Origin: a virus
Reading direction: 5' to 3' (one strand)
Virus record (IMG/VR): IMGVR_UViG_3300023184_000321
Location: 1-34,899 of that record
DNA: 34,899 nt
The notes under the pieces were generated by a model. The model ran no database searches, was not told the origin of the DNA, and worked only from the letters and a program-made list of their open reading frames with translations. Shown in pieces: positions 1-30,763 of the stretch (positions within the stretch are counted from its first letter, which is position 1; each line of letters opens with the position of its first letter). The position numbers were made by a program, and so were the translations under genes.

Positions 1-308
1 ATGAACACCTTTGTATCGGCATCCTCTAATTGTGGGTTATAATTGCTATCCCCATATATCTCTCTAATAATCGAAATGACCTTTCTATCAACATCTAATT
101 TTTTTAATAAAGATGTCAATTTTTTACCACCGCTATTGCAAGTCCAACAATGCCACTTTTGGGTTTCCGTATTAACTTGTAATTTTTGTTTATGGTGATT
201 GCAGAAAGGACAGTAGAAAGCTAACTCATTTCCTTTCAGATTGAGATAACTGCCTAAAATACCGGTTAGGGTAGATATAACTATATTCTTATCATTTTGC
301 TTCAACAC
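1..308 (-). CDS. DNA primase, N-terminal fragment (CHC2-type zinc finger), cut by window edge
   Basis: This is the first ~102 codons of a gene that continues past base 1. Read on the minus strand, it carries CPFCNHH followed by WHCWTC about 20 residues later. This C-x2-C...C-x2-C arrangement is the zinc-binding finger at the N-terminus of DnaG/T4 gp61/T7 gp4-type primases, which lay RNA primers for lagging-strand synthesis. TAA lies directly before the GTG at 308, so GTG (308) or the next codon TTG (305) must be the start. A promoter-like element at 315-345 places its -10 box six bases before the GTG, suggesting a leaderless mRNA. Whether a helicase domain follows (T7 gp4 type) cannot be seen. 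The neighbouring endonuclease I fits a replication/recombination block. Confidence 0.72.
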   Translation of the reverse strand, partial: MLKQNDKNIVISTLTGILGSYLNLKGNELAFYCPFCNHHKQKLQVNTETQKWHCWTCNSGGKKLTSLLKKLDVDRKVISIIREIYGDSNYNPQLEDADTKVF

Positions 309-314
309 GACTTA

Positions 315-345
315 AATATACGACAAATATTTGATATTACCAAAT
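315..345 (-). promoter_or_regulatory. Promoter-like element, copy 1 of 5 (upstream of primase)
   Basis: On the minus strand there is TTGGTA (338-343), a 17-bp spacer and TATATT (315-320), resembling sigma70-type -35/-10 boxes. The element fills the gap between the endonuclease I stop and the primase GTG. Thirty of its 31 positions match copy 25997-26027. Confidence 0.7.
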
Positions 346-348
346 ATT

Positions 349-774
349 TTAAGGTCTATTTTCCTCTAAAAACCACTCATTTGGGATGATTTTGTCCGAA
401 TATTTGTACCCGTTTTTTTCACACCAATCCCCATAGGTCGTTTTGGACTTTTTGGTAATTTTGTTCTTTGAATTGGAAAATACGAACCTAATGTCCATAT
501 TTGGGTTTTGTTCTTTAACCAATAAGTGTTTCTTGCGGTCAGCTGCCACAAACCTACCTTTTGTCTCTATTCTAATACCATTGGGTAGTTTGAAATCGGG
601 ATGATAGTGGTGAGTGGATGCAGGAATTATGTACGGAACCTTTTCGGTTTCATACTCTACTTTAATTCCATAAGATTCTATTTGTTGAGAGATGGTTTCT
701 TCTAAACCAGACTTAAATCCATATTTTTGTGCAACCCATTTTGGATTGTTTTTTTTTGTAACTTTTTTAGCCAT
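349..774 (-). CDS. T7-type endonuclease I (Holliday-junction resolvase)
   Basis: The 141-aa protein closely resembles T7 gp3 (149 aa) over its whole length. Matching pieces are SGLEE near the start, VPYIIPAS, HPDFKLPNG, IETKG, DRKKHLL and the C-terminal DKIIPNEW. Catalytic residues of T7 gp3 (Glu20, Asp55, Glu65, Lys67) correspond to Glu25, Asp60, Glu70 and Lys72, a constant offset of five. The family acts as a dimer that cleaves four-way junctions and branched DNA, resolving replication intermediates before packaging and sometimes degrading host DNA. The ATG at 774 lies six bases after the stop of the upstream gene, so it is probably co-transcribed with it. Finding a T7-type resolvase beside T4-type tail genes shows the mosaic nature of the genome; T4 itself uses endonuclease VII. 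Confidence 0.95.
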   Translation of the reverse strand: MAKKVTKKNNPKWVAQKYGFKSGLEETISQQIESYGIKVEYETEKVPYIIPASTHHYHPDFKLPNGIRIETKGRFVAADRKKHLLVKEQNPNMDIRFVFSNSKNKITKKSKTTYGDWCEKNGYKYSDKIIPNEWFLEENRP

Positions 775-18542: not shown

Positions 18543-20240
18543 TTATTTACTTATTAAAAACTTACCCAAAACTAAATAATCCATATCACAATTATGAAAT
18601 GTCCAAATAGCTTTTTGTGGGTCATTTGTCATTGTGTGGTCTTTTAAGTTAAATGATGTATTCAATAGAATGGGTGTTCCTGTTAGTTTTTCGAACTCTT
18701 TTAATAAGTCATAGTAAAGTGGATTATCTTCTCTTTTAAGTGTCTGTATCCTTGCCGAATTGTCAACATGGGTTACTGATGGAATGTTTACATCCTTTTT
18801 AACTTTGACAACCTGATTCATATAGGGAACATCTTCTTCTGATAGGAAATACTTTTGATAATCTTCGATTGTAACCGATGGAGCAAATGGTCTAAACATC
18901 TCTCTCTTTTTGACAACTTTATTAATTCTATCTCTAATGTCGGATAAATGTGGATTAGCTAATATAGAACGATTGCCCAATGCCCTTGCACCAAATTCTG
19001 TTCTACCTTGAAACCAGCCTATAATATTACCTTCTTCAATTAATTTTGCAACTTGTTTACATAACATTTCATCGGTATCAAACATTACAACTTTTTTTCT
19101 ATGATTTTGTAATATAATTTTAAGTAATTCAGGACTACTCCACTCCTCACCCAAATACGGAGATTGATTATCACCACCTTTTACTTTTGGATTACCCATT
19201 ACAATATGGTATTGATATAAACATGCACCAATAGCAGAACCACTATCCGATGGGGCAAATGGTATAAATACATTCTTAATTGATGTAGATGTTTTTATTT
19301 TACCATTGGCAGTTCCATTATAAGCACATCCACCACCTAAAACCAAATTCTCACATTCCCATATATTAGTAATTCTATTGATAAGAAAGTATAATGCACT
19401 TTCATACCATCTTTGTAATGAGGCAGCTAAGTCTTTATGATGTTGTTCAATTGGTTCATCTTTGAAACGAGGTGGAAATCCAATTAAATCAATAAGTTGT
19501 TGGTTAAACATATCGTTATCGGATGTTTCCCATGTAAAATAAGACATATCCATTTTAACAATATCAAATTCACCACCCATAGTAGCAATTTTATCAAACA
19601 CACCATTATATTGTTGTTTATCACCATATGGTGCCAATCCCATTACTTTATACTCACCTTCGTTTGGTTTGAACCCTAAATAAGTAGTGAATGCTGAATA
19701 AACCAATCCTAATGAATGTGGAAAGTGCAATGTTTGAATTGTATGAAAGCCGGTCTCATCACACATTGCTGCATATATAGTATGCGATTCACCAACCCCA
19801 TCAATTGACAATCCTATTGCTTTATCAAATGGAGATGTATAGTAAGATAATGCTAAATGTGAATGATGGTGTAATGAATATAAAATTTCTCCATCATATC
19901 CAATTGATTTTAATATTCCTTTTAAGTTGCCCTCCGTTTCATTCCATCTTTTAATAAACTTTCTCCATTTCATTGGATATCTTAAGCCACCCCACTTACC
20001 AATTGTTTCTCTAACTCTTTCAAATTTATCTTTTGGATTTTCATACCAACAAACCATATCAACCTCATCAATTGTTATCTTTACATATTCTAAACACCAT
20101 TGAATTGCCTTAAACGGAAAAGAACTATCATGTTTTTCACCGGATAGTTTTTCTTCTTCAATAGCACATATTACTTTACCATCTATTACTAATGCTGCTG
20201 CTGAATCGTGATAAAAGCCTGATAAACCTAATTGTATCAT
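18543..20240 (-). CDS. Carbamoyltransferase, NodU/TobZ/HypF-like family
   Basis: The 565-aa protein is full length for the NodU family. The N-terminal domain starts GLSGFYHDSAAALVIDGKVI, followed by AIEEEKLSGEKHD, the usual Kae1-like carbamoyl-AMP transfer site. HHHSHLALSYYTSPFDKA and LSIDGVGE carry the metal/ATP-binding histidine cluster. LVLGGGCAYNGTANGK ends the first domain, and GWFQGRTEFGARALGNRSIL opens the C-terminal YrdC-like domain, which makes carbamoyl-adenylate from carbamoyl phosphate and ATP. Such enzymes O-carbamoylate sugars or small molecules. Marine phages carry homologues of uncertain use, possibly DNA-base, capsule or virion-glycan modification. The gene lies two bases after the late sigma gene and immediately before the baseplate genes. 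Confidence 0.95.
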   Translation of the reverse strand: MIQLGLSGFYHDSAAALVIDGKVICAIEEEKLSGEKHDSSFPFKAIQWCLEYVKITIDEVDMVCWYENPKDKFERVRETIGKWGGLRYPMKWRKFIKRWNETEGNLKGILKSIGYDGEILYSLHHHSHLALSYYTSPFDKAIGLSIDGVGESHTIYAAMCDETGFHTIQTLHFPHSLGLVYSAFTTYLGFKPNEGEYKVMGLAPYGDKQQYNGVFDKIATMGGEFDIVKMDMSYFTWETSDNDMFNQQLIDLIGFPPRFKDEPIEQHHKDLAASLQRWYESALYFLINRITNIWECENLVLGGGCAYNGTANGKIKTSTSIKNVFIPFAPSDSGSAIGACLYQYHIVMGNPKVKGGDNQSPYLGEEWSSPELLKIILQNHRKKVVMFDTDEMLCKQVAKLIEEGNIIGWFQGRTEFGARALGNRSILANPHLSDIRDRINKVVKKREMFRPFAPSVTIEDYQKYFLSEEDVPYMNQVVKVKKDVNIPSVTHVDNSARIQTLKREDNPLYYDLLKEFEKLTGTPILLNTSFNLKDHTMTNDPQKAIWTFHNCDMDYLVLGKFLISK

Positions 20241-20242
20241 TT

Positions 20243-20941
20243 CTAAATATTTATATCGCCATTTTTATCAAATTCACTATATAATTCCATTTGCCTCTCT
20301 TTCATTTTATTTACAACTTTAGTAATATAATGTGTTGGATGGCCGGTCATTTCTCTAATAAGTAGATATAGTGATTTTTTATTAAAATTCTCTATGTAAT
20401 TTGCTCTTCTAAATAATTCTAATACCGAATCTGCAATTTGCATATCTCTTTTCTTTGGAAAATAGTTTTCTAAATGTTTATCCCAATATTGAAGCATTCT
20501 AATATTAAATGTTCTAAATTCATCATTACGCTCCTCTTCTCTAAAATTATTTTCAGTATCAAATGAATCAGGTAATCCTGACATTATATCTGTGTCTTTA
20601 TATCTTTTGTAATTTGCGTTGTTATTTAGAATAAGATAATTTCTTGCAACAATTGTAAAATAAGAAAATGCTTTACCTTTACCATTTTTGTACATATGAA
20701 TCTTTTCAATCATAAACGCAACAACCTCTGCCATTACATCTTTTGGGTCATCATCAAAATAAGTAAATTTCCATTTATTGTAAACTATCTCTGCGAGTTT
20801 GTCAAATGCAGATGCAATTCTTTCTCTATATAATTTATCTTTTATATACTGGTCAGTTGTGATATTATATTCTATAATAGCATCTTCGGTATCTTTTGAA
20901 AAATATTGTCTATTTGGCCCTCGTTTTTTTCTAGTTGCCAT
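20243..20941 (-). CDS. Late-transcription sigma factor, T4 gp55-like
   Basis: The 232-aa protein has the sigma70 region-2 pattern. A basic N-terminus (MATRKKRGPNRQYFSKDTED) leads to AFDKLAEIVYNKWKF, then DVMAEVVAFMIEKIHMYKNG and KAFSYFTIVARNYLIL. This corresponds to regions 2.1-2.4, which bind the polymerase clamp and melt the -10 element. Region 4 is not evident, as in T4 gp55 (185 aa), which recognises only a -10 element and uses the sliding clamp as activator. A role in late transcription of the downstream tail genes is likely; TATTTATA octamers in this window are candidate targets. Its ATG lies inside the 3' end of the 88-aa gene (11-nt overlap). Confidence 0.85.
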   Translation of the reverse strand: MATRKKRGPNRQYFSKDTEDAIIEYNITTDQYIKDKLYRERIASAFDKLAEIVYNKWKFTYFDDDPKDVMAEVVAFMIEKIHMYKNGKGKAFSYFTIVARNYLILNNNANYKRYKDTDIMSGLPDSFDTENNFREEERNDEFRTFNIRMLQYWDKHLENYFPKKRDMQIADSVLELFRRANYIENFNKKSLYLLIREMTGHPTHYITKVVNKMKERQMELYSEFDKNGDINI

Positions 20942-21197
20942 TGTTTTTTTGTTTGAATTTTTCTATTGTTTCTTTGATTTGATAAAATATAGAACCAACC
21001 TCATCATCCTTCTCAAACATTTCACGACTATCAATTAGTCTTAATGCTTCCAGTAATGCTTCGTTTCTGTCAATTTCGGTTTTTATAAATTTTTGTGTTT
21101 CTTCGTATGCATCTTCATATTTTTCCATTTTTTGAAGAAGATTATAAACTACATATAGTAATGTAATTATAAGTAATGTAAGTATTGTATATATCAT
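20931..21197 (-). CDS. Small membrane-anchored coiled-coil protein
   Basis: The 88-aa protein opens with one hydrophobic helix (ILTLLIITLLYVVYNLL, residues ~4-20), followed by a charged helical region to the C-terminus (KMEKYEDAYEETQKFIKTEI and onward). There is no cleavage or lipobox site, so it is probably an N-terminally anchored inner-membrane protein with a cytoplasmic or periplasmic coiled coil. It sits between peptide deformylase (2-nt spacing) and the late sigma gene (11-nt overlap), so it shares their transcript. The function is unknown. Confidence 0.78.
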   Translation of the reverse strand: MIYTILTLLIITLLYVVYNLLQKMEKYEDAYEETQKFIKTEIDRNEALLEALRLIDSREMFEKDDEVGSIFYQIKETIEKFKQKNNGN

Positions 21198-21198
21198 A

Positions 21199-21834
21199 TT
21201 AAACTATTTCGTATCCTTCTAAAAAGTATTTGTTTGCATTTTTGTATTTAACTTCAACCATCTCACCATCTTTGGATTTCATTACAATTTTATCATTTCT
21301 ACCATAATTAACTTTTTTGACAAAAGTGGTAGTATAAACTCTATCTTTAATTGTAAATCCGTCTAAGTGGTCTATTTCATGCTGAACGATGACGGTCATC
21401 ATTGTTTCCTTTGATATTGACTCATTTTGTTTATCTCCTTCCGGATTAATTTCAAAAGTTAATTCACCTAAGTTATCGGTATCAACTACAACCTTACAAG
21501 CTCTAATGGTTCTTGTTGGTTTTATAAGTGATGATGGAATAGATAAACACCCCTCCATAAAAAGAAATCCTTCTTTAGATTTTTCTTTTATCATTGGATT
21601 AACTAAAAATAATTCTTCTTCTCCAAACTTAATATAACAAGCTCTCTTTTTAATTCCCAATTGAGTGGCCGATATTCCTAATCCTGGATACTCAGTCAAC
21701 CCTTGTTCTAATTGATTTCTTAACTCATCTGCTTCTTGTTGAGTTATTTCCGATTTTAACACAGGAGTTTTAAGATACTCCGTAAACTCTTTTGTTATTA
21801 GTCCGTTAGAACCTTTGTCAACTATTAATTTCAT
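21199..21834 (-). CDS. def: Peptide deformylase
   Basis: The 211-aa protein has all three conserved motifs of peptide deformylase. Motif 1 is GLGISATQLGI (residues 51-61, usual GxGxAAxQ), motif 2 is EGCLS (94-98) and motif 3 is QHEIDHLDG (151-159). Cys96, His152 and His156 are the metal ligands and Glu153 the catalytic residue. The enzyme removes the N-formyl group from new proteins. Phage-encoded copies are known from cyanophages, where they are thought to speed maturation of proteins made during infection. Motif 1 has Ser55 in place of the first Ala. The C-terminus extends past the usual end (EGYEIV). It lies three bases after DUF2061 and two before the membrane protein gene. Confidence 0.95.
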   Translation of the reverse strand: MKLIVDKGSNGLITKEFTEYLKTPVLKSEITQQEADELRNQLEQGLTEYPGLGISATQLGIKKRACYIKFGEEELFLVNPMIKEKSKEGFLFMEGCLSIPSSLIKPTRTIRACKVVVDTDNLGELTFEINPEGDKQNESISKETMMTVIVQHEIDHLDGFTIKDRVYTTTFVKKVNYGRNDKIVMKSKDGEMVEVKYKNANKYFLEGYEIV

Positions 21835-21837
21835 ATT

Positions 21838-22047
21838 TTATTTTTTTAATCCGTATTTTATCCACTTATACCAAACTCTTTCGTGAATATAGTATTGTAT
21901 GGGTTTATAAATCAATTCTGCTACTCCAAATGCTGCTCCAACTTTAATTGAACCACTTATCAACCACATTAATAAGAATCCAATTAAGGTACTTAAAATA
22001 CGATATGATATGGTTTTGGCAATGTGTCTCTTACGTTCTACTATCAT
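21838..22047 (-). CDS. DUF2061 small membrane protein
   Basis: The 69-aa protein matches DUF2061 throughout: AKTISYRILSTLIGFLLMWL, then GVAELIYKPIQYYIHERVWY and the C-terminal WIKYG. Two hydrophobic helices (residues ~13-33 and 36-50) are joined by SGSIKVG, with a conserved His-Glu-Arg-x-Trp after the second. The family's function is not established. The ORF overlaps the 3' end of the nucleotidyltransferase by 17 nt, so the two proteins are translationally linked. As I recall, DUF2061 proteins are often found near sulfate-activation genes, but I cannot test that here. Confidence 0.9.
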   Translation of the reverse strand: MIVERKRHIAKTISYRILSTLIGFLLMWLISGSIKVGAAFGVAELIYKPIQYYIHERVWYKWIKYGLKK

Positions 22048-22426
22048 CTTCGGTATCTATATTGTAAATAACTACATCTCCATTAGAGTCGATGTATTTT
22101 TGTCTAATTGCAGTTCCGCTAATTTTTTCAATTTCTTTCGGTGGTTCGTGATAAATTACATCATAACCTACACCTCTACCATAATTTACCGATTCAATAT
22201 CGGGAATAATAGATAATAAAATTTTATCCCAATTGTTTGTAAAAAATGGTTCTTTTTGTAATTCTTGTAATACTTCTTGTGCAGATTTTGGATTATTTTC
22301 ATCCTTTTGTACATCTCTAATTGCTACCCAACAATTCTTTCCCTTTTCTAATTGTTGATTGATTAACCACTCATGACCTTTATGCCATGTTTGCCATCTT
22401 CCAATAAATAATGCGTATTTTTTCAT
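22031..22426 (-). CDS. Cytidylyltransferase-like nucleotidyltransferase
   Basis: The 131-aa protein is a minimal HxGH-type nucleotidyltransferase. LFIGRWQTWHKGHEWL places the HxGH motif at residues 15-18, and ISGTAIRQKYI near the C-terminus matches the ISxTxIR element. Together these bind the triphosphate of ATP or CTP. Relatives include NMN adenylyltransferase and glycerol-3-phosphate cytidylyltransferase; the substrate cannot be read from the motifs. A promoter-like element (22433-22463) ends six bases before the ATG, suggesting a leaderless transcript. The gene overlaps DUF2061 by 17 nt. Possible roles are NAD synthesis or activation of a sugar/lipid head-group. Confidence 0.82.
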   Translation of the reverse strand: MKKYALFIGRWQTWHKGHEWLINQQLEKGKNCWVAIRDVQKDENNPKSAQEVLQELQKEPFFTNNWDKILLSIIPDIESVNYGRGVGYDVIYHEPPKEIEKISGTAIRQKYIDSNGDVVIYNIDTEDDSRT

Positions 22427-22432
22427 ATTTGT

Positions 22433-22463
22433 AATATACGAAAATTATTCTAAACTACCAAAT
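22433..22463 (-). promoter_or_regulatory. Promoter-like element, copy 2 of 5 (upstream of nucleotidyltransferase)
   Basis: TTGGTA (22456-22461), a 17-bp spacer and TATATT (22433-22438) lie on the minus strand. The ATG at 22426 starts six bases after the -10 box. The element fills the 39-nt gap after the stop at 22466. Confidence 0.68.
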
Positions 22464-22465
22464 AA

Positions 22466-23671
22466 TTAATAAGTTTTAATTAAATCGTCTTCCTGTTTCT
22501 TTTTATATTTTAACCAAAAATTAATTGCATTTTGGTCATTTATCCATTTTGTTTTATCACTCCAATCAAAATCGGATTTTGCGTAGTATGGTAATAAATT
22601 TCTACTACCGTTGGCTCTTTCTGCATGACCTTCTGGAGACCATTCATCTATAATTCCATCATTATTCGTATCATATCCATCAATTGTTCCATCACCATCC
22701 AAGTCAATAGGAATCCTAACAATTGAATTTTCATTTTCTTTGTAATTCTCATTTTCTTTGTTTTCGTTAATAATATTTTCTACTATAACTTCATTTTTAC
22801 CCTCTTTTGTAGAATTTTTTCCACTATCTCCGTATATTTGGTAATTTTTGTAGTTTTCTTCCATTAAATCATCTAAGTTATCATATAATCCTAATTTTTG
22901 GTCATATTCCACCATTTCACCCAAAAGTCTTCTTTGTTTTTGTTTTTTTGTTTCAATCAAACCATTAAATGCAATAATTAACGCAACTGCCAATGGGTCA
23001 AATACTATTACAATCAAAAATATGAAGAATTTTACAACATTTTTCAATTCCATACCAAATGCTTCCGCTACAAATCGAAATCCACCTACTTCTTTCTCCA
23101 AATCTAAGTTAGTAATCTTAATTTTGTTAATTTCTTCGTTATTTTTAGCATTTTCGTCTTGCAAACTACCAATTTTTTTGTTAATTGTTGCAACCTGTTT
23201 ATCTTTACTATCAATTGAGCGTAAAAGACGAGAATTTACCTTACCTTTGTCTAAAATTGTGTTTTGTGTTGAGGATAACTGACCCAATTGAGTGTTTAGT
23301 TGGGTAATTTGAGCATCATTTGAACCAATTTTTGTAGTATAAACAGCAATTTCTCTATCCACTTGCTGTAATTTAAGATTTTGTTGTTGAAATGCGTTAG
23401 AAAGGTAACCAAATATACCGGCAGATGTAATAACCATCAATAATGTCACTGCCGATACTAAATACCACTTATTAAATCCTTTAATTTCTTCCCATTTTTG
23501 TTTTAGATATGTTGCAGCAACTAACTTTGCGAATTCTAACGAACCCGCCATCACCATTACCGATGTTGCGGCACCACTAAATAGGACACCTAAACCCGTT
23601 ACGGAGAAAAATGCTGCACAACCGGCGACAATTAGTGCAGAAAATCCGACTAACCACTTAAGCCAATTCAT
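22466..23671 (-). CDS. Membrane protein with coiled coil and EF-hand-like calcium loops
   Basis: The 401-aa protein has hydrophobic segments at residues ~6-24, 27-48, 70-93 and 212-235. A long periplasmic or cytoplasmic coiled coil lies between the third and fourth (LKLQQVDREIAVYTTKIGSN onward). The C-terminal soluble part ends with two adjacent EF-hand-like loops near residues 321-341: DLDGDGTIDGYD and DTNNDGIIDEW, matching DxDxDG/DxNxDG calcium ligands. Proteins of this architecture are common in large phages of unknown function. It lies one base after the 58-aa gene and upstream of the promoter at 22433. A role in the host envelope is likely from topology; whether calcium controls it is inference. 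Confidence 0.8.
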   Translation of the reverse strand: MNWLKWLVGFSALIVAGCAAFFSVTGLGVLFSGAATSVMVMAGSLEFAKLVAATYLKQKWEEIKGFNKWYLVSAVTLLMVITSAGIFGYLSNAFQQQNLKLQQVDREIAVYTTKIGSNDAQITQLNTQLGQLSSTQNTILDKGKVNSRLLRSIDSKDKQVATINKKIGSLQDENAKNNEEINKIKITNLDLEKEVGGFRFVAEAFGMELKNVVKFFIFLIVIVFDPLAVALIIAFNGLIETKKQKQRRLLGEMVEYDQKLGLYDNLDDLMEENYKNYQIYGDSGKNSTKEGKNEVIVENIINENKENENYKENENSIVRIPIDLDGDGTIDGYDTNNDGIIDEWSPEGHAERANGSRNLLPYYAKSDFDWSDKTKWINDQNAINFWLKYKKKQEDDLIKTY

Positions 23672-23672
23672 T

Positions 23673-23849
23673 TTATCTATTGATTCGTGTTAATTCAGAA
23701 ATACGCTCTACTACCTTTCTTGCATCTTCTAATGTAGTGTGCGCTTCAGAAGGTGACATTGTTTGTGCACCTGTGATTCCGTTTTGTAAAATCCTTAATT
23801 TACCATCTAAGGACTCTAATAACATTTGTATTTTTTCGTTGTATATCAT
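23673..23849 (-). CDS. Small helical protein, unknown (58 aa)
   Basis: This 58-codon ORF is short but well placed. The ATG at 23849 lies 12 nt after the SGNH gene stop, and the TAA at 23673-23675 lies one base before the next ATG. The protein is amphipathic and helical: MIYNEKIQMLLESLDGKLRI at the start and TTLEDARKVVERISELTRI at the end. A TATTTATA octamer (23853-23860) lies three bases before its ATG. It fills the gap between two clear genes with no spare sequence, which is the main reason to call it real. Confidence 0.72.
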   Translation of the reverse strand: MIYNEKIQMLLESLDGKLRILQNGITGAQTMSPSEAHTTLEDARKVVERISELTRINR

Positions 23850-23852
23850 ATC

Positions 23853-23860
23853 TATAAATA
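23853..23860 (-). promoter_or_regulatory. TATTTATA octamer (candidate late signal)
   Basis: Coding-strand TATTTATA fills most of the 12-nt gap between the SGNH stop (23862) and the ATG at 23849. The start codon is only three bases away, so a promoter here would yield a leaderless or truncated mRNA. Confidence 0.25.
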
Positions 23861-23861
23861 T

Positions 23862-24743
23862 TTATTTTTCTAAAAAAGGGAATAATACGTTCTCACACCA
23901 TAGTTTTGCACCTAGTGCACTAGGATGAAATCCATCTTTACTAAAGTATCCTGTATTCTCATCTAACTTAAGTCTTTCGGCATGTGCTACATTTGTCGAC
24001 TCTTTTCTATCTATGTTTAATAGAGTGTGTAAGTATTCAAACATACCATTTTTTAACATAGTAACTTCATCTAATTGTTTATATAAATAATTTATTATTT
24101 GATGGTTTTTGTTATTTTCAATATCTTCAAATACCGAATCCATAAAAAATTGTTGATAAAAATTAACACCTTTTAATTTACAAAAGTTTTGTAACATAAT
24201 TATATTTTCAATACTATTATGTACTTTACCAATACCACCTGCTAACCACCCATCTAAAATATAATGTTGTTGTACGAACTCCATTTGACAATCACTACCA
24301 TTTACTGTAAAATACCAACCACCTTCCGGATTATATTCAAATTTGCTACCACCCTTTGTTTCAAAATATTCAGGATGTTCTGCATTTCTATTTTTTAAGT
24401 CTAAAAATTGACTAGACATTCCACCTTCAAAATTGGGCCATAAGTCGGTCATTTGTTTTATAATAATCGGATTATCTATATACCAAGCTTTTCTAAATGT
24501 TCCACTCCACATTACTACTACCATAATCTCATCAGGTTGTAACCCACTATCCAATGCTTCTATAATTGCCAACATAACTTTCTTTTGAATAAGTTCTTGT
24601 CCTTGACTTAAATATCCGGTGTGGTTTATTGTTAAATTTTCATTTTCGGTTTTTAACTTATCTGCTAAAAATCCAATCCAACTTTCATCGGGTTTGTGAC
24701 AATGACTAAAGCTACATCCTCCTGTAATTAAATGTTTTATCAT
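23862..24743 (-). CDS. SGNH/GDSL-like hydrolase A
   Basis: The 293-aa protein starts MIKHLITGGCSFSHCHKPDE, the GxS block of SGNH hydrolases, with Ser11 or Ser13 as candidate nucleophile. The C-terminal DGFHPSALGAKLW supplies the Asp270/His273 pair (DxxH block). Family members are esterases or acetylhydrolases acting on acylated sugars, lipids or peptidoglycan. The central region is long and has aromatic patches that could hold a glycan. The start is preceded by an A/T-rich leader and, upstream, by a terminator (24758-24791) and a weak promoter-like element. A second SGNH gene lies 2 kb away, suggesting phage-driven deacetylation of cell-surface sugars. Confidence 0.82.
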   Translation of the reverse strand: MIKHLITGGCSFSHCHKPDESWIGFLADKLKTENENLTINHTGYLSQGQELIQKKVMLAIIEALDSGLQPDEIMVVVMWSGTFRKAWYIDNPIIIKQMTDLWPNFEGGMSSQFLDLKNRNAEHPEYFETKGGSKFEYNPEGGWYFTVNGSDCQMEFVQQHYILDGWLAGGIGKVHNSIENIIMLQNFCKLKGVNFYQQFFMDSVFEDIENNKNHQIINYLYKQLDEVTMLKNGMFEYLHTLLNIDRKESTNVAHAERLKLDENTGYFSKDGFHPSALGAKLWCENVLFPFLEK

Positions 24744-24757
24744 AATGTTTGTTTAAT

Positions 24758-24791
24758 AAAAAAAGGTAGAAGTGACTGAACTCCTACCTTT
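24758..24791 (-). terminator. Rho-independent terminator after Hsp20
   Basis: The stem AAAGGTAG(G)AGT / ACT(T)CTACCTTT closes a six-base loop and is followed by a run of seven Ts, on the minus strand. The one imperfect pair is G-U on the minus strand but A-C on the plus strand, which sets the direction. Confidence 0.85.
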
Positions 24792-24793
24792 GT

Positions 24794-24824
24794 AATATAC
24801 GAAAAATAACTGAATTAACCTAAT
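24794..24824 (-). promoter_or_regulatory. Promoter-like element, copy 3 of 5 (weakest; overlaps end of Hsp20 gene)
   Basis: The -10 part TATATT (24794-24799) and its flanks TTTTCG and ACAAA match the copy at 22433 exactly over 17 nt, but the -35 is poor (TAGGTT). It lies just upstream of the terminator hairpin, so a transcript from it would start inside the hairpin. Confidence 0.4.
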
Positions 24825-25201
24825 TTTGGGGTTAATTTTTTTGGTTTGGACTCTTCTTTTCTTTCGATGGTAATTAAAAGAATACCATGTTTAATTTCAG
24901 CTTTTGCTTTTCTACCATCAAAGTTTTTACCTACATTGATTCTTTCTTCGATATCCGAAACCAATTGATTAAAAGGATTTTCTTTATCCTCTCCTATTTT
25001 TTTAGCTTTGATTTCAATTTTGTCCTCAAAGCAATTAATTTCAATATCCTTTGGGTCGTGTCCTAATACTGATAGAGCAAGGGTTGCAGATTCATCTTTA
25101 ATGTCTACTGCGAATTTGTTTTGAACATAAGTCGTTCTTGTCTTTGGTTGTTCGATTGGAAAAAATTCTTCGAATAATTTACTGTAATCAATCATGTACA
25201 T
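24815..25201 (-). CDS. Small heat-shock protein, Hsp20/alpha-crystallin family
   Basis: The 128-aa protein has the alpha-crystallin fold: an N-terminal segment SKLFEEFFPIEQ, then KFAVDIKDESATLALSVLGH, KDIEINCFEDKIEIKAKK, and AEIKHGILLITIERKE as the AxxxGxL strand before a short Pro/Lys-rich tail. Such proteins hold unfolding proteins in large oligomers. T4-like phages of aquatic hosts often carry one, thought to help fold or stabilise virion proteins. Met1 (25201) or Met3 (25195) may be the start. The gene sits alone between a candidate host-type promoter (25238-25270) and a terminator, so it looks like a single-gene transcript. Confidence 0.95.
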   Translation of the reverse strand: MYMIDYSKLFEEFFPIEQPKTRTTYVQNKFAVDIKDESATLALSVLGHDPKDIEINCFEDKIEIKAKKIGEDKENPFNQLVSDIEERINVGKNFDGRKAKAEIKHGILLITIERKEESKPKKLTPKLG

Positions 25202-25237
25202 AATAAATGTTTTTTAGTTAATAATACCCATATAGTT

Positions 25238-25270
25238 CAAATACTATACCATCCCTTATTTTGTTACAAA
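25238..25270 (-). promoter_or_regulatory. Candidate host-type promoter of Hsp20
   Basis: Minus-strand TTTG (25267-25270) lies 20 nt before TAGTATTTG (25238-25246). Bacteroidetes house-keeping promoters are described as TTTG at -33 and TAnnTTTG at -7; here the -7 box has one extra base. TAACTTTG, an exact TAnnTTTG match, lies at 25267-25274 but lacks an obvious upstream TTTG at the right distance. Confidence 0.35.
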
Positions 25271-25318
25271 GTTATGACAAAACTACCCTAACTTTATTAC
25301 AAATCGGAAAATCTGTCA

Positions 25319-25966
25319 TTAAATTGTGTTATCTTGTCTTTCAATGATTGTCGACATATGGTCTGCCCAATGCATAATAAATTGTAACTTATAAACTAAT
25401 TGTTTCTTTAAGTCGTGGCCTGCTAAATACTTTTGATTATCTTCGTCATACATACCATCGGTAAGTTTGATTGCAAAATACTCTTTCTCATTATACTGAA
25501 TACCATAGTGGTTCAATGTAAAGAAAGTTCTATCGGTTAAAGTCATATATGGGATATTCTCATTACGAACAAATAGGGTTCCGTATTTCTTTTGAGACCA
25601 TTCTTCCTGATTTGGTAAATAATGTAGTTCACCTTTAACACCTAACTTTCCTAAGTCGTGATGTAGACAACTAAATATTAATTCTTCTTCGGTGAAATCA
25701 ATCTCTCCACCTTGCATTACGAACAGGTCTCTCATTTTAAGAGCGTTCTTACATACATTAAAGATGTGGTCAATATACCCACCTATATATGCGTTATGAT
25801 AGTGTTTTGAGCCAGATGCAGGTGATACTGCTAAATTACTACCCAATTCTTCTTCGGAATACATATGGAGTAATTTTTCCAATCTTTCACCTGTAAAGTA
25901 TTTTTTAATAATTCCGATAAATCTATCGTAGTTTGCTTGTAATTCTTGTTCTGTCTTTAGTTTCAT
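25319..25966 (-). CDS. HD-domain hydrolase
   Basis: The 215-aa protein carries the HD metal-binding pattern. His55/His57 lie in SKHYHNAYIGGYIDH, with a second histidine in YIDHIF (His67), and the signature HHDLGKLG has His103-Asp104. Members of this superfamily are phosphohydrolases (nucleotidases, dNTPases, cyclic-dinucleotide or RNA phosphodiesterases); no feature fixes the substrate. A good promoter-like element (25997-26027) stands 31 nt upstream of the ATG. Between it and Hsp20 lies a 117-nt gap with a candidate Hsp20 promoter. A role in nucleotide metabolism or signal degradation is plausible. Confidence 0.85.
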   Translation of the reverse strand: MKLKTEQELQANYDRFIGIIKKYFTGERLEKLLHMYSEEELGSNLAVSPASGSKHYHNAYIGGYIDHIFNVCKNALKMRDLFVMQGGEIDFTEEELIFSCLHHDLGKLGVKGELHYLPNQEEWSQKKYGTLFVRNENIPYMTLTDRTFFTLNHYGIQYNEKEYFAIKLTDGMYDEDNQKYLAGHDLKKQLVYKLQFIMHWADHMSTIIERQDNTI

Positions 25967-25996
25967 AATTTAGAGTTTAATTGTTTATAATACTCT

Positions 25997-26027
25997 AATA
26001 TACGACAAATATTTGACATTACCAAAT
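25997..26027 (-). promoter_or_regulatory. Promoter-like element, copy 4 of 5 (upstream of HD gene)
   Basis: TTGGTA (26020-26025), 17 bp, TATATT (25997-26002). It differs from the primase copy at one of 31 positions. It begins directly after the SGNH gene stop and leaves a leader of about 24 nt before the ATG at 25966. Confidence 0.75.
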
Positions 26028-26834
26028 TTATATTAAGGTTCGTTTAATTTCATTCAAATCTTCCGGTAAATAATTTCTAAAATTGGTTTTAATATATTCA
26101 AATAACTTTATAGCATATTCATAGTTGTGTCGTGGGCCGGGGTGTAAGCCATCCGTTCCTCTATCTAAATAATTTTTATATTCACCATCAAATCTATTAA
26201 ATTCATTATAATCCTTTGATATTCCAAAATGGCCGTTCCACAACCAATTGCATTTTTTTGTTTCTAAAAAATACTTTATAAGTAAGTGATTTTTATACCA
26301 ATTAATAAAATTTGCACTATCATTTTGTAAAGAAATTAAATGATTTTGTACCTCACGTCCTTCTTCTGTGTTTTCCAACCAACCCCAACTGGCAGTGGGC
26401 ATGAATGGTTCTACTCCATTATTTTCGGTATATATTTCTCTTCTTTGTGGATTTGTGTACATTATTAATACTAAATCTGGTTTTACTAAGTCATAGTAAG
26501 TTAATAAACATCTGGTAATATAATCATTACTTCTTCCGCCCATTCCAAAATTCAAATTAACTCCGTTAGGTATATATTTTGTAAAATTATAAGACCAGGT
26601 TTCATTGTTATTTACACCCACACCTTCGGTTATAGAGCACCCGATAGCCATTATTTTGAATCCGGGTTTATCAAATGAATCGGCCCTAAATCCCATTTCG
26701 TTATAAGTATATACGGATAACCCCGATTTATCACTTCCAGACGTTTTATATGTTTGGTTTTTTCTTTCGGTTAATTTCCATGCATAGGACGATATTTCAA
26801 ATTCTTCTGGTGTCCAATATTTTAATGCATCCAT
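26028..26834 (-). CDS. SGNH/GDSL-like hydrolase B
   Basis: The 268-aa protein has the SGNH blocks. IMAIGCSITEGVGVNNNETW carries Ser67 as candidate nucleophile, FGMGGRSNDYI supplies the Gly and Asn of the oxyanion hole, and DGLHPGPRHNYEYA near residue 235 carries the DxxH pair. Substrates in the family are acylated sugars or lipids. It is the last gene of the enzymatic island transcript, with one base between it and the sulfotransferase-like gene, so the two may act on the same surface glycan. It is related only distantly to the SGNH protein at 23862. Confidence 0.85.
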   Translation of the reverse strand: MDALKYWTPEEFEISSYAWKLTERKNQTYKTSGSDKSGLSVYTYNEMGFRADSFDKPGFKIMAIGCSITEGVGVNNNETWSYNFTKYIPNGVNLNFGMGGRSNDYITRCLLTYYDLVKPDLVLIMYTNPQRREIYTENNGVEPFMPTASWGWLENTEEGREVQNHLISLQNDSANFINWYKNHLLIKYFLETKKCNWLWNGHFGISKDYNEFNRFDGEYKNYLDRGTDGLHPGPRHNYEYAIKLFEYIKTNFRNYLPEDLNEIKRTLI

Positions 26835-26835
26835 C

Positions 26836-27555
26836 TTAAATTAATTGTTTTGTTTTTTCAAATCTTTTTTCAAAATTGTCCCAAACCCAATTTTTTAATC
26901 TATCGTCTTTTACAATTTTGTTTGAAAGTTTATTATATGAGTTTAATTTTTCTAACTTAAATTCTGTACCATATCGGTTTGTTATAAAATTTTCAAATTT
27001 ATCTAATTCCTTAAAATCAAATTCATATGTACATTTATTGTTTTTTTTCCAAGTGTTTTGAGATAGTAATAATGCTGGGTAATAGTAATGGTCTTTTAGT
27101 GGGTGGTCTTTTATTTCACAAAAATGAAAAGTATATTCATATTTCAGCTTTACCATTTCATCGTCAATATATTTATTTGCATTTCTATTTATGGAATGTA
27201 TTGTATCTATATATTTTTTTGTAAAATTATTGTATAACCAATTATTATCAATATCTTCCCATTTTATAATAGGAATTAATCCGGCATTTGTCATAGATAA
27301 CCACATAAATTCTAATGCAGCATACCACCTATCAAACCAATCTCTATTGACACATATTGTTTCTTTTATTCCAAAAAAATTATATAATTTTTCGACCTCT
27401 AAGTGTACATGTAAACCTTTATCATAATATTTTTCTTTATAATCATAAGGATATTTACAATTCAATGTAGAATTTATAAGTGCACTTTCAATTGAAGTGC
27501 TGGCACACCTTGGAATTGCTAACCATATTAAATCATCATTTATACATAAAGACAT
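26836..27555 (-). CDS. Sulfotransferase-like protein
   Basis: The 239-aa protein begins with a beta strand and loop, LIWLAIPRCASTSIESALIN. This resembles the PAPS-binding P-loop (PKxGSTS) of sulfotransferases, with Arg16-Cys17-Ala18-Ser19-Thr20-Ser21 here. A second element, VNRDWFDRWYAAL near residue 90, resembles the 3'-phosphate-binding RxxxxR/S region. These enzymes transfer sulfate from PAPS to sugars or tyrosines. The length is short but within range for phage and bacterial forms. It lies between a 2OG oxygenase and an SGNH hydrolase in one transcript. The assignment is by P-loop and layout and could also describe a nucleotide-binding relative. Confidence 0.7.
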   Translation of the reverse strand: MSLCINDDLIWLAIPRCASTSIESALINSTLNCKYPYDYKEKYYDKGLHVHLEVEKLYNFFGIKETICVNRDWFDRWYAALEFMWLSMTNAGLIPIIKWEDIDNNWLYNNFTKKYIDTIHSINRNANKYIDDEMVKLKYEYTFHFCEIKDHPLKDHYYYPALLLSQNTWKKNNKCTYEFDFKELDKFENFITNRYGTEFKLEKLNSYNKLSNKIVKDDRLKNWVWDNFEKRFEKTKQLI

Positions 27556-27588: not shown

Positions 27589-28137
27589 TTATATAATAGT
27601 TTTAATATTTTTACTTTTTACATTTAACCAAGACACCAAAGAATACCTTGTGCCAGTTATAATTGGAGCCACTTTATGTTTGGTGTTGGATGGAAAGATA
27701 AATAAATTTCCGATTCCTTTTTCAAATTCTATTACATTATCATCTAAATCCATATACAATAATTCTCCTCCTGTATATTCGTTGTTTAATTGTATTACAA
27801 CTGAACAAATTCTATGTGATGAGGGTAATGAGTTTGTATCAATATGCCAATCATAGTGACCCCCTTCTTCATATTTTACAAATTGAAATTTTTCTTGTGT
27901 TTGTTCTAAACTATACCCTTTAATTATTTCAGTATTATTTAGATAGTTTATTAATCTATTTGTAACATCTGATAACTCAACTGATTTAACTTTTGCATTT
28001 CGTTTTTCTAAATCAATTACATACCCAACAGGTGAACCCACTTCTCCCAAATTTAATTTTACATTTATATTTTGTTGGATTATTAATTCACATTCTTTTT
28101 TTGAAAGAAAATTATTAATAGTTTTAATGTAACTCAT
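27589..28137 (-). CDS. 2OG-Fe(II) oxygenase (prolyl 4-hydroxylase-like), A copy
   Basis: The 182-aa protein has the full iron/2-oxoglutarate set: HYDWHID (His98, Asp100) and, after a beta-rich span with YTGGELLYMD, FIFPSNTKHKVAPI (His154) and GTRYSLVSWL (Arg164, which holds 2-oxoglutarate). The length and order match the P4Hc/2OG-FeII_Oxy family, which hydroxylates protein, peptide or nucleic-acid substrates. It directly follows the zinc-ribbon gene at 28143 (five bases between), mirroring the second zinc-ribbon/oxygenase pair at 30078-31038. The substrate is unknown; a product of the island itself is one possibility. Confidence 0.9.
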   Translation of the reverse strand: MSYIKTINNFLSKKECELIIQQNINVKLNLGEVGSPVGYVIDLEKRNAKVKSVELSDVTNRLINYLNNTEIIKGYSLEQTQEKFQFVKYEEGGHYDWHIDTNSLPSSHRICSVVIQLNNEYTGGELLYMDLDDNVIEFEKGIGNLFIFPSNTKHKVAPIITGTRYSLVSWLNVKSKNIKTII

Positions 28138-28142
28138 TTATT

Positions 28143-28421
28143 TTATATTATGGATTTATCATTTTTATTATGAAAAAATGGATAATCTACATCTTTCCAC
28201 TTCCCCAATGGACATGCATTAAACATATCCGTAAATACTTTTTTTACAACGGGACAACCACATTCACCACAAACAATACCCAATTTTAACTCTTTAATTA
28301 TTTTTTTTTTAGATGGACATGTTTCACATATATTAGCACGTAGGTTGGCCAGTGATATTTGTCTTTTTGTTGGGTTTTTTGCAATTGCCCATGTTTTTAT
28401 TATTGTAAATAAATCAGCCAT
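28143..28421 (-). CDS. Small zinc-ribbon-like protein A
   Basis: The 92-aa protein has seven Cys. The arrangement is CETCP, about 17 residues, CGECGC, about 15 residues, then CPLGKW. The protein at 30811-31038 shares the whole pattern (CVECP, CKECGC, CPLNKW), so they are paralogues and likely bind one or more zinc ions. The N-terminal helix (MADLFTIIKTWAIAKNPTKR) is basic and could interact with RNA, DNA or a partner. No enzyme activity is suggested. It sits five bases before a 2OG oxygenase, as its paralogue precedes another. I infer an adaptor or substrate-binding partner for the oxygenase. Confidence 0.82.
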   Translation of the reverse strand: MADLFTIIKTWAIAKNPTKRQISLANLRANICETCPSKKKIIKELKLGIVCGECGCPVVKKVFTDMFNACPLGKWKDVDYPFFHNKNDKSII

Positions 28422-28548: not shown

Positions 28549-30036
28549 TTATAGACAATATCTTGGATAACTCCAACAATACCCCGCACCGGTACATACT
28601 GTACCTTTACCAATACAGCTGTTAGTAGTACAAGAACCTGGGCCAGTACAAAATTCATAGTTATGTTCAATTGCAGCAAATGATATTGAATTAGTGGTGT
28701 CGTTTGTTCTTGTTAAGAATATATGTTTATCTGCTACTGTAATTATCCATCCTGAAAAGATTTGAGATGTTGTAATCACTGATGTTACTTCCTTTGTTAT
28801 CGTTGATACTACGGATACATTGGATGAATCTATTAATATAACTAAATCACCAGCGACCATATTACCTATTGATGAAAAAATAACACTATTGTTTCTCTCT
28901 ACTAAATAAAATGAATTTTCGGTATCTTCCCATATAGTATTATCGGTAAATGTGATTGTAGAATAATTTGTTAATTTATTTACTTTCTTTTTATGTGTAA
29001 TAGTATTTGGTGTATATACTACCCCAGTCATAAAATCTGCAATCGGTAGTGTGTACTCACCCAATTCATATAAAATATTACTATTATCTATATTTGGTAT
29101 TGTTATTGATTTAACTAAATCACCCACTTCCAATTCTAATGCCGTTTTCCAACTACCGTCCGCCATTTGTACTTGGTCGGTATCTAATAATTTTGGTTGC
29201 ATTAAGTCCGCCGTTTCGGTTATATATGCATTTCTATACATAATGTCCAATTCAAATGATGTGGTATTATATACAGGTTCCGTTGGAATAAATTGACTAG
29301 TTAAATCGGTATATTGTCCTATTGTAATACTTTGTAAAGTCGGTGGATATAATACATTCAAACTTCTAATTTTTGTTATTTGATTATTATGTTTTTTTGA
29401 ATCATTAAAATAATATTCCATTAAGAAATAATCACTAGTAACATTGTTTGCAATAATAGTATCTAATTCTGTTTGTGAACTAACTTTATATAATTTTGGA
29501 TATAAATTTTTGTTATAATTTGGATATCTACATTTCAAAATAAAATTTGGGTGGATTCCATTATCTGTTATTGTTGTTATGTTATTAACCAACATATTGG
29601 AATCGTCTAAATATGCAAATTGAGAACCAAATGTAGAATCTTTTACTAAATTCATAAAATGGACTTTATCTCTACAATATGTATCATCTACTAATGCCGT
29701 TGTATCGTACGCACTTCTGATAATTAAAGTTGTATCATTATCTTCAATATAAGGTATCGTTATTGAATCGGTTCTAATGTATCTATATTCATATACAATT
29801 GACAACTCAGCGGACATACTGCTAAATACATCTGATAATGCTTTGTTTCCACCAATATAGCATAGATGTAAAAAACCATTGGATGTTATAAATTCTTTCA
29901 AATTTGTGATATCATAAACATCCGAATCATCTTCTATTTTATTGGTACTATATCCAACATTTGTATTTATTTCAATTGGTTTCAAATTACCAATTTTGTC
30001 ATACATAAAATCCGAACCCATTAATACTGTTCTCAT
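28549..30036 (-). CDS. ATP-grasp-like / Hint-like protein with Cys-rich C-terminal tail
   Basis: The 495-aa protein appears to have three parts. Residues 1-280 carry ATP-grasp-like pieces: IEINTNVGYS, LIIRSAYDTTALVDDTYCRD, FILKCRYP and FLMEYYF. Residues ~283-460 look like a Hint domain: LLDTDQVQMADGSWKTALEL then VGDLVK, LVERNNSVIFSSI with GDLVILID, and the block-F-like WIITVADKHIFLTRTN followed by AIEHN. Residues ~461-495 are a tail with six Cys and five Gly (CTGPGSC, CIGKGTVC, GYC, YCL). Canonical intein splice residues are missing: no Cys or Ser at the Hint start, and Tyr instead of Cys/Ser/Thr after HN. It sits between two zinc-ribbon/oxygenase pairs. The reading is by pattern; the Hint part is more secure than the ATP-grasp part. 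Confidence 0.78.
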   Translation of the reverse strand: MRTVLMGSDFMYDKIGNLKPIEINTNVGYSTNKIEDDSDVYDITNLKEFITSNGFLHLCYIGGNKALSDVFSSMSAELSIVYEYRYIRTDSITIPYIEDNDTTLIIRSAYDTTALVDDTYCRDKVHFMNLVKDSTFGSQFAYLDDSNMLVNNITTITDNGIHPNFILKCRYPNYNKNLYPKLYKVSSQTELDTIIANNVTSDYFLMEYYFNDSKKHNNQITKIRSLNVLYPPTLQSITIGQYTDLTSQFIPTEPVYNTTSFELDIMYRNAYITETADLMQPKLLDTDQVQMADGSWKTALELEVGDLVKSITIPNIDNSNILYELGEYTLPIADFMTGVVYTPNTITHKKKVNKLTNYSTITFTDNTIWEDTENSFYLVERNNSVIFSSIGNMVAGDLVILIDSSNVSVVSTITKEVTSVITTSQIFSGWIITVADKHIFLTRTNDTTNSISFAAIEHNYEFCTGPGSCTTNSCIGKGTVCTGAGYCWSYPRYCL

Positions 30037-30077: not shown

Positions 30078-30713
30078 TTATAATAAAGATTTTTTATTCT
30101 TAATATTCACAATATCAAATCCGACATTGGAACAAATTGCAATTCTATCTTCATTAGAGTTTGGTATCAAGTTCGGCCGATGCATTACATCTTTACCAAA
30201 AATTACAAATTCACCTTCGTTTGGTAGAATTTCTATTAATTCAGCACCATCCTTAAATCCTAACATTCCTTCATTTTTTTTTAGGTTTTTTGGTATTTGC
30301 AAATAAAAACAATAAGTCCAAGTTGTTGCAATCGGTACAATAGTGTTTTTATGTGGATGTGAAGTATCGTAACTAATTGCAATCGGATGGTTGTGATAAT
30401 CAATTTTATGTGTAATGAGTTCTTTTGTATTTGGTGTTGTCTTAAATACCCAAGTCTTGCCGGCCCATGCACCATTCCAATTAATTCCCTCAACTAATCC
30501 AGATATTTGTTTACAAGCTTCAATTCCATATTTGATTACTGATTCTATTTCTTTAGATTGTATACCAAATATACTTGTGTTTGTGTCGGTATAACCAATT
30601 GATAAAATATTTTGTTCAACTCTGTTTATTAATGATTCTTTTGAATATTCCCAATTATAGTCAGTACGATATATGTCTATATTTTTACTAAGTTGTTGTT
30701 TTACTATATTCAT
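30078..30713 (-). CDS. 2OG-Fe(II) oxygenase-like protein, B copy
   Basis: The protein is 211 aa when started at the ATG at 30713. A longer reading frame runs to 30761, but that start lies in the -35 box of the promoter at 30733-30763, so the transcript would not include it. The second half reads like the 2OG-FeII_Oxy_5 type: TSHPHKNTIVPIATTWTYCF, then FYLQIP, GEFVIFGKDVMHRPN and EDRIAICSNVGF, giving candidate iron ligands at HPH and MH and a 2-oxoglutarate-binding Arg. The N-terminal half is poorly conserved. It is likely a hydroxylase of unknown substrate, paired with the zinc-ribbon gene at 30811. Confidence 0.72.
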   Translation of the reverse strand: MNIVKQQLSKNIDIYRTDYNWEYSKESLINRVEQNILSIGYTDTNTSIFGIQSKEIESVIKYGIEACKQISGLVEGINWNGAWAGKTWVFKTTPNTKELITHKIDYHNHPIAISYDTSHPHKNTIVPIATTWTYCFYLQIPKNLKKNEGMLGFKDGAELIEILPNEGEFVIFGKDVMHRPNLIPNSNEDRIAICSNVGFDIVNIKNKKSLL

Positions 30714-30732
30714 ATATAAACTATTAAAACCA

Positions 30733-30763
30733 AATATACGATAAATATCCCACATTACCAAAT
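30733..30763 (-). promoter_or_regulatory. Promoter-like element, copy 5 of 5 (upstream of oxygenase B)
   Basis: TTGGTA (30756-30761), 17 bp, TATATT (30733-30738) on the minus strand. It probably drives the 2OG-B/Hint/zinc-ribbon/2OG-A/sulfotransferase/SGNH transcript. It sets the oxygenase start at 30713, with a leader of about 13 nt. Confidence 0.72.

Follow-up and report, generated by a model that had tools for sequence, protein, structure and literature searches.

A phage protein that joins an ATP-grasp-fold domain, a Hint domain and a Cys-rich tail as a putative self-cleaving peptide precursor

Several described systems share single elements with the phage protein that is the subject of this work. 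BIL domains keep Cys1; in the Tetrahymena BUBL locus they lie on either side of ubiquitin-like domains and set them free. Glutathione synthetase-type enzymes act on small substrates. In graspetides (the ATP-grasp RiPPs), an ATP-grasp ligase goes together with a ribosomal peptide, the precursor and the ligase being separate genes, while SICLOPPS is a split-intein method of peptide cyclisation. A-type BIL domains are described, in the available excerpt of PMC7765530, as keeping His-Asn, cleaving their C-terminus and not ligating. No description of a fusion of ATP-grasp, Hint and peptide parts was found in the titles and abstracts of the open-access papers searched; the words "phage" and "Hint" occur zero times in the text of a phylogenomic survey of graspetides (word search of PMC8939145), and the excerpts available from PMC11118758 and PMC12360287 contain no comparable phage-encoded system.

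The protein studied here is encoded at positions 28549..30036 on the minus strand of IMG/VR record IMGVR_UViG_3300023184_000321, the 34,899 bases of which form the window; baseplate genes are found on the same strand. An original prediction, made from the letters alone, had described a Hint-like domain ending in a Cys-rich tail. Direct annotation of the 495-residue protein was uninformative (no Pfam or NCBIfam model matched it, PHROGs gave nothing useful, and phmmer against the PDB returned a chance hit only), so that a profile was needed. The AlphaFold2 model of the full chain, made with a 51-row alignment, had a mean pLDDT of 84.5 and a pTM of 0.80. Together with fold searches and conservation, it divides the gene into three parts, all on the minus strand: residues 1-278 (29203..30036), with a predicted ATP-grasp fold; residues 279-459 (28660..29202), a Hint (intein-like) domain; and residues 460-495 (28552..28659), a six-Cys tail that the model renders with low confidence. 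The first of these was overlooked in the original prediction, the interpretation of which also lacked the even Cys counts of the tails, the modification-enzyme neighbours and the ATP-grasp ligase.

A first scan of viral contigs with the single sequence gave only one true relative, L001, together with two fibre proteins, L002 and L003, that carry an apparently intact Hint. Profile scans of viral contigs confirmed 82, 278 and 257 relatives, 80 being kept each time, and the genome contigs yielded one; tblastn with four family queries against 50,697 phage records found no relative. After removal of four partial and one open-ended sequence, 190 family ORFs left 185 of full length, which were reduced to 119 representatives at 90% identity. 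Groups were set by custom patterns around the HN pair. Group A (52 representatives) is window-like and has Cys-rich tails from 23 residues upward. The tails of group D (41) measure ~29 residues and are of the type CWCPW..C, while group B (13, plus L191, which lies outside the pattern and was added) carries a Cys-rich segment followed by Peptidase_S74. Three representatives form group C, and nine others stand outside A-D. In a tree of the ATP-grasp domain, groups A, C and D each fell on one side of a branch (100/100, 100/100 and 99/99, respectively). L191 comes from a 3.7 kb contig in a Pelagibacterales MAG, probably a phage fragment, and gives a possible host hint only. One 211-kb contig (G004) carries two family members, L009 and L042, with different tails.

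Since the model matches Hint/intein structures and the arrangement recurs in the 52/119 representatives grouped with the window protein as well as in three other groups, we conclude that the Hint–HN–Cys-rich layout is real and not due to chance. The finding is richer than the original account of it, and relatives are frequent in viral contigs, a single scan having confirmed 278, yet neither Pfam nor NCBIfam has a match for the window protein.

The explanation that we prefer, with a probability of roughly 0.55, is that the protein is a precursor that cleaves itself and, through Asn cyclisation, releases a disulfide-rich peptide, the products of neighbouring genes probably modifying this peptide. 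His458 would help Asn459 to cyclise (the two codons occupy 28660..28665, minus strand), and the cyclisation would cut the chain after Asn459, freeing a Cys-rich peptide with Tyr460 as its new N-terminus, the cysteines of which would pair into disulfides. Before release, the fused ATP-grasp peptide/amide ligase would probably act on the attached peptide. The tail peptide would probably also be modified by the 2OG oxygenase and sulfotransferase-like proteins encoded next door and, in relatives, by the APS kinase, SPASM/radical-SAM-like proteins and tryptophan halogenase. Computation gave the two predicted folds, the HN pair kept without Cys1, the even Cys counts and the gene neighbourhood; from these we infer cleavage, disulfides, ligase activity and the peptide as the substrate of the enzymes. 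The peptide is most likely a released or virion-borne effector or a receptor-binding element. If this is true, a virus has a self-contained way to produce a peptide that is processed, rich in disulfides and probably chemically decorated, from a single chain that also contains the ligase and the release element.

A more specific form of the precursor explanation can be offered only tentatively. According to it, the locus is a phage peptide-natural-product system whose precursor serves both as ligase and as the enzyme that removes the leader; the ATP-grasp domain, together with neighbouring oxygenases, sulfotransferases, radical-SAM-type enzymes and, in one clade, a tryptophan halogenase, would modify the peptide while it is tethered to the Hint domain, and Asn cyclisation would then free it. 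RiPPs in the broad sense are ribosomal peptides that neighbouring enzymes modify and that are released from a leader; here, neighbouring genes for modification enzymes and a candidate release element are present, and modification and release are putative. The resemblance to graspetides lies in an ATP-grasp ligase that goes with a ribosomal peptide; unlike in graspetides, the two are fused in one chain and a separate precursor is absent.

The Hint fold was examined with two structure searches. Foldseek returned BIL2 of Tetrahymena BUBL (PDB 6y75, 6tmm) as the best match over residues 278-461 (6y75, E 5.9e-8, 17% identity), and VIA aligned 139 residues of the Hint domain (279..459) with the NpuDnaB intein (Z 15.1, rmsd 2.4). 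The comparison of a model with Hint and intein folds, which the original prediction had named as its check, thus bore it out, and the blocks on which it relied (MADGSWKTALEL, VGDLV, VADKHIFLT and EHN) were all found in the 495-residue protein. Alignment of the Mtu RecA intein (1..440) to residues 282..459 places Lys282 at Cys1 and Asn459 at the terminal Asn. The start nucleophile, Cys or Ser, is absent from position 1, as had been claimed, and a Tyr (Tyr460) does follow the HN pair. Block B reads TENS (372-375) instead of TxxH. Thus, out of the features of class 1 splicing inteins, Cys/Ser at position 1, TxxH and Cys/Ser/Thr at +1 are lacking and the C-terminal His-Asn is present; splicing, which the original prediction had considered impossible by the classical route, was rejected, since Cys1, TxxH and a +1 nucleophile are missing. 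Lys282 as a nucleophile in its own right was also considered and dropped: group D has His at this place and others have Ser, Asp or Gly.

Among the 119 representatives, position 1 is never Cys (Lys in 52, His in 42, Ser in 13, others in the rest), the +1 residue is variable, and His at the block B place was seen in group B and L083. Asn459 (119/119) and His458 (117/119) rank first and second among the 181 Hint columns; the next-best column reaches 114/119 and the median count of the top letter is 49, i.e., the Hint domain is poorly conserved overall. For inteins, the available excerpt of PMC4031507 names Asn G:7 and His G:6 as the residues of Asn cyclisation, has C-terminal cleavage occur when cyclisation comes before branch formation, and holds the block F His to assist the cyclisation. 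Since the latter residue (His438 in the window protein) is His in only 42/119 representatives, and Asp in 67, its poor retention counts against cleavage. The best reading of these sequence patterns is that the Hint domain lost its N-terminal splicing chemistry and kept the C-terminal half. Cleavage only after the Asn, a guess of the original prediction, is indirectly supported by the retention of His458-Asn459 and by autoprocessing modules found on the far side of the tail in relatives, and the cut itself should be taken as putative. Tyr-Asn replaces His-Asn in two representatives, L083 and L113, which have 3-residue tails with nothing to release. These two and L115-L117 keep the Hint domain without a Cys-rich tail, which counts against peptide release as its function.

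The domain is like A-type BIL domains in its fold and conserved His-Asn end. Unlike them, it belongs to a family without the position-1 nucleophile and is found in phages, behind an ATP-grasp ligase and before a Cys-rich peptide. BUBL BIL2, with 17% identity to the window Hint, differs in being eukaryotic and in having a ubiquitin-like cargo. If our reading is true, Hint domains evolve into one-sided cleavers, giving up splicing.

Residues 1-278 were modelled alone with a pLDDT of 91.4. The highest VIA scores were obtained with human and yeast glutathione synthetase (Z 9.4; rmsd 4.8 over 226 aligned residues for yeast), followed by YjfC (9.2), YgiC (9.1) and glutathionylspermidine synthetase (8.6), and then by tubulin tyrosine ligase complexes, ArgX and RimK; the VIA matches listed for this region were all ATP-grasp-type ligases or complexes containing one. 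The single Foldseek match below 0.001 was yeast glutathione synthase. A weak alignment (E 0.26) relates the segment DFMYDKIGNLKPIEINTN to the E-x-N region found at ~274-307 in a biotin-carboxylase-type chain of 451 residues, and since this stretch stands at the very start of the window protein, the order is permuted in the manner of glutathione synthetase-type enzymes. The region is predicted by the model to be a circularly permuted ATP-grasp ligase fold, as in eukaryotic-type glutathione synthetase, glutathionylspermidine synthetase and YgiC/YjfC (Z 8.3-9.4); unlike these enzymes, it is shorter and is fused to a Hint domain and a peptide. Residues E22, N24, R107, D111, K168 and R224 are invariant in 119/119 representatives, as is Met1. 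We take E22, N24 and K168 to be metal/nucleotide residues of ATP-grasp ligases, and the invariance of E22, N24, R107, K168 and R224 suggests a working enzyme.

The tail had been predicted to contain six Cys in 35 residues; the six Cys stand (463, 469, 474, 481, 487 and 494), and the length is 36. An even number of Cys was found in 52/52 tails of group A, 13/13 of B, 3/3 of C and 40/41 of D, as well as in L191 (12 Cys), 109/110 in total; L083, L113, L115-L117, L118-L120 and L132, nine representatives in all, lack a Cys-rich tail and were left out of these counts. The sole odd tail, that of L188, has nine. When tails were clustered at below 40% identity, 40/40 clusters had an even number, which points to disulfide pairs. 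Group D tails most often have six Cys and group A tails eight, and 4, 10 and 12 also occur; a zinc-finger tail was considered less likely, such counts being better suited to disulfide pairs than to metal sites. The tail diverges faster than the Hint or ATP-grasp domain: in 19 group A pairs with ATP-grasp domains 80-85% identical (mean 82%), identity was 77% for the Hint domain and 39% for the tail, and in 16 group D pairs chosen in the same range it was 82% and 63%. Tails of group D contain on average 2.76 Trp and those of group A 0.56.

In four representatives, L118-L120 and L132, a second Hint domain (the C-terminal ~150 residues) begins 7-8 residues after the first HN. The segments between the two read KCHTYPYC, KCAWSGFC, KCTWSGFC and PNYSPFF. 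The second Hint keeps Cys1, its block B reads TFDH, and the final HN is missing in 3/4; Pfam Intein_splicing or PT-HINT scored above cut-off in L118, L119 and L132 (3/4). The first domain thus retains the half for C-terminal cleavage, and the second, with Cys1 present and HN mostly gone, that for N-terminal cleavage; a short peptide lies between them. In the tree, L132 stood apart from L118-L120, on a branch that is long. By analogy, these pairs would be a natural layout resembling an engineered peptide-cyclising pair: L118-L120 share with SICLOPPS the order of a C-cleaving Hint, a short peptide and a Cys1-bearing Hint and differ in having two whole Hints in one natural chain, and cyclisation of the segment is putative. 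Similarly, the BIL domains of BUBL flank their cargo, just as in L118-L120 and L132 the peptide would have a Hint on each side. Should the locus be a peptide-natural-product system, proteins that carry an additional Hint or an S74 domain may excise the peptide at both ends, and in the double-Hint form it may be cyclised. Further Hint-like stretches occur on group D contigs (G088:118313-118828, E 2.6e-10; G053:163288-163794, E 7.6e-7). Two fibre-like proteins (L002:3340-6471 and L003:4870-6477) end in an apparently intact Hint domain (CFVYGT..., TYEH, AHN and a short tail), and the genes after them look like 2OG oxygenases.

The S74 Ser-Lys dyad performs self-cleavage, and the Peptidase_S74 domain (endosialidase chaperone) that follows the tail at the C-end of group B proteins has the Ser-Asp-x3-Lys (SDxxxK) pattern in 14/14. 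Pfam S74 was detected in 10/51 members scanned and is absent from the window protein. As a chaperone typical of tail fibres, this domain is equally in keeping with a virion protein and with a peptide, and it brings in the main rival of the precursor explanation, which we consider possible though on the unlikely side. In this rival, the protein is a virion appendage in which the ATP-grasp and Hint parts are rigid blocks (the Hint may be a plain structural fold), nothing is cleaved, and the Cys-rich end stays attached as a disulfide-stapled receptor-binding tip. PHROG matches among 51 members, namely virion structural protein in 11 and DNA ejection protein in 11, are in line with it, as are the same-strand baseplate genes of the window and the fast divergence of the tail, expected of a receptor-binding tip. 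However, a mere scaffold leaves unexplained why conservation peaks at His-Asn in a Hint domain that otherwise drifts; the invariant E22, N24, R107, K168 and R224 suggest a working enzyme; and in four relatives a Cys1-bearing second Hint stands directly behind the segment.

The genes around the locus, mostly on the same strand in the 119 loci, were compared next; as the contigs come from related phages, the counts given below are not independent, and p-values computed as if they were are too optimistic. The next downstream gene (28143..28421, minus strand) encodes a 92-residue protein with six invariant Cys (CxxC...CxxCxC...C), which matches phrog_13558 (E 4.8e-6) and has a PDI-like protein as the best PDB profile match (E 0.0048); its family is found in 101/119 loci. 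It is followed by a 2OG-Fe(II) oxygenase (27589..28137, minus strand; PF13640, E 7.7e-16; 99/119 loci) and a sulfotransferase-like protein (26836..27555, minus strand; 93/119 loci), both possible modifying enzymes. The latter was matched by profile to heparan sulfate 2-O-sulfotransferase (E 0.001), and Pfam gave no hit for a member of the family. Just upstream, the gene at 30078..30761 (minus strand) is weakly 2OG-oxygenase-like (PF13759, E 0.12; phrog_274, E 0.0012). Other neighbour families are a second sulfotransferase-like family (63/119 loci), SGNH-type (58), SPASM/radical-SAM-like (42), APS kinase (36) and tryptophan halogenase (33); assignment of both sulfotransferase-like families is weak, coming from weak PDB profile matches. 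Pfam searches with one example each gave Trp_halogenase (E 3.5e-85), APS_kinase (E 1.8e-20), SPASM (E 1.4e-5) and 2OG (E 2.1e-5). Of 25 records picked for being long, 18 contain an APS kinase, which is no more than 6.5 kb away from the gene in 15 of them.

According to the available excerpt of PMC2984593, tryptophan halogenases have been noted in cyanophages, and the functions given for them are only speculative. In loci with at least 5.5 kb upstream, a halogenase gene was present in 17/20 of group D, 0/33 of A and 0/5 of B. Contig-wide search, which covered 41/41 group D and 50/52 group A loci (the latter in 49 records, one of which holds two loci; L105 and L110 were left out), found it in 28/41 group D and 2/49 group A records. 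It is absent from 13/41 group D records, some of them on contigs of 89-251 kb (G069, G072 and G074 are long). Nine long contigs have both genes, 1.7-2.6 kb apart in seven (all D) and 13 and 24 kb apart in two (both A). Halogenase presence follows clades; a constant tie to Trp-rich tails was rejected, given the D records without the gene and the two A records and named phages with it. Halogenase was found in 78 named phage records, with 2OG genes beside it in Pelagibacter phage HTVC008M and P-SSM2; since tblastn with the four family queries found no such protein in that collection, the modification enzymes have other substrates at least there. If the precursor explanation is true, the tail peptide becomes a candidate substrate for phage tryptophan halogenases, and the natural-product form of it would provide one for phage 2OG oxygenases as well.

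Improbable, in our view, is that the ligase itself is the product, Hint cleavage after Asn459 shedding the tail and thereby switching on an enzyme that modifies a host or phage protein. The ATP-grasp residues conserved in 119/119 would be expected of such an enzyme, and modification of host proteins has been suggested as a role of ATP-grasp peptide ligases from phages (available excerpt of PMC7824862), but a shed autoinhibitor need not show even Cys numbers, fast divergence or flanking release modules of its own, and modification enzymes cluster around the gene. That the Hint part is a functionless, decaying intein-like relic is very improbable: Cys1 and the block-B His are gone from the window protein and its Hint is below Pfam detection, but HN is kept in 117/119 across groups ~25-30% identical to the window protein, and decay would not best spare His-Asn.

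Between the baseplate genes and the locus studied here, the window also contains genes that were assigned by eye (18543-26834). These look like a carbamoyltransferase (18543-20240), a peptide deformylase (21199-21834), a nucleotidyltransferase (22031-22426) and two SGNH proteins (23862-24743 and 26028-26834).
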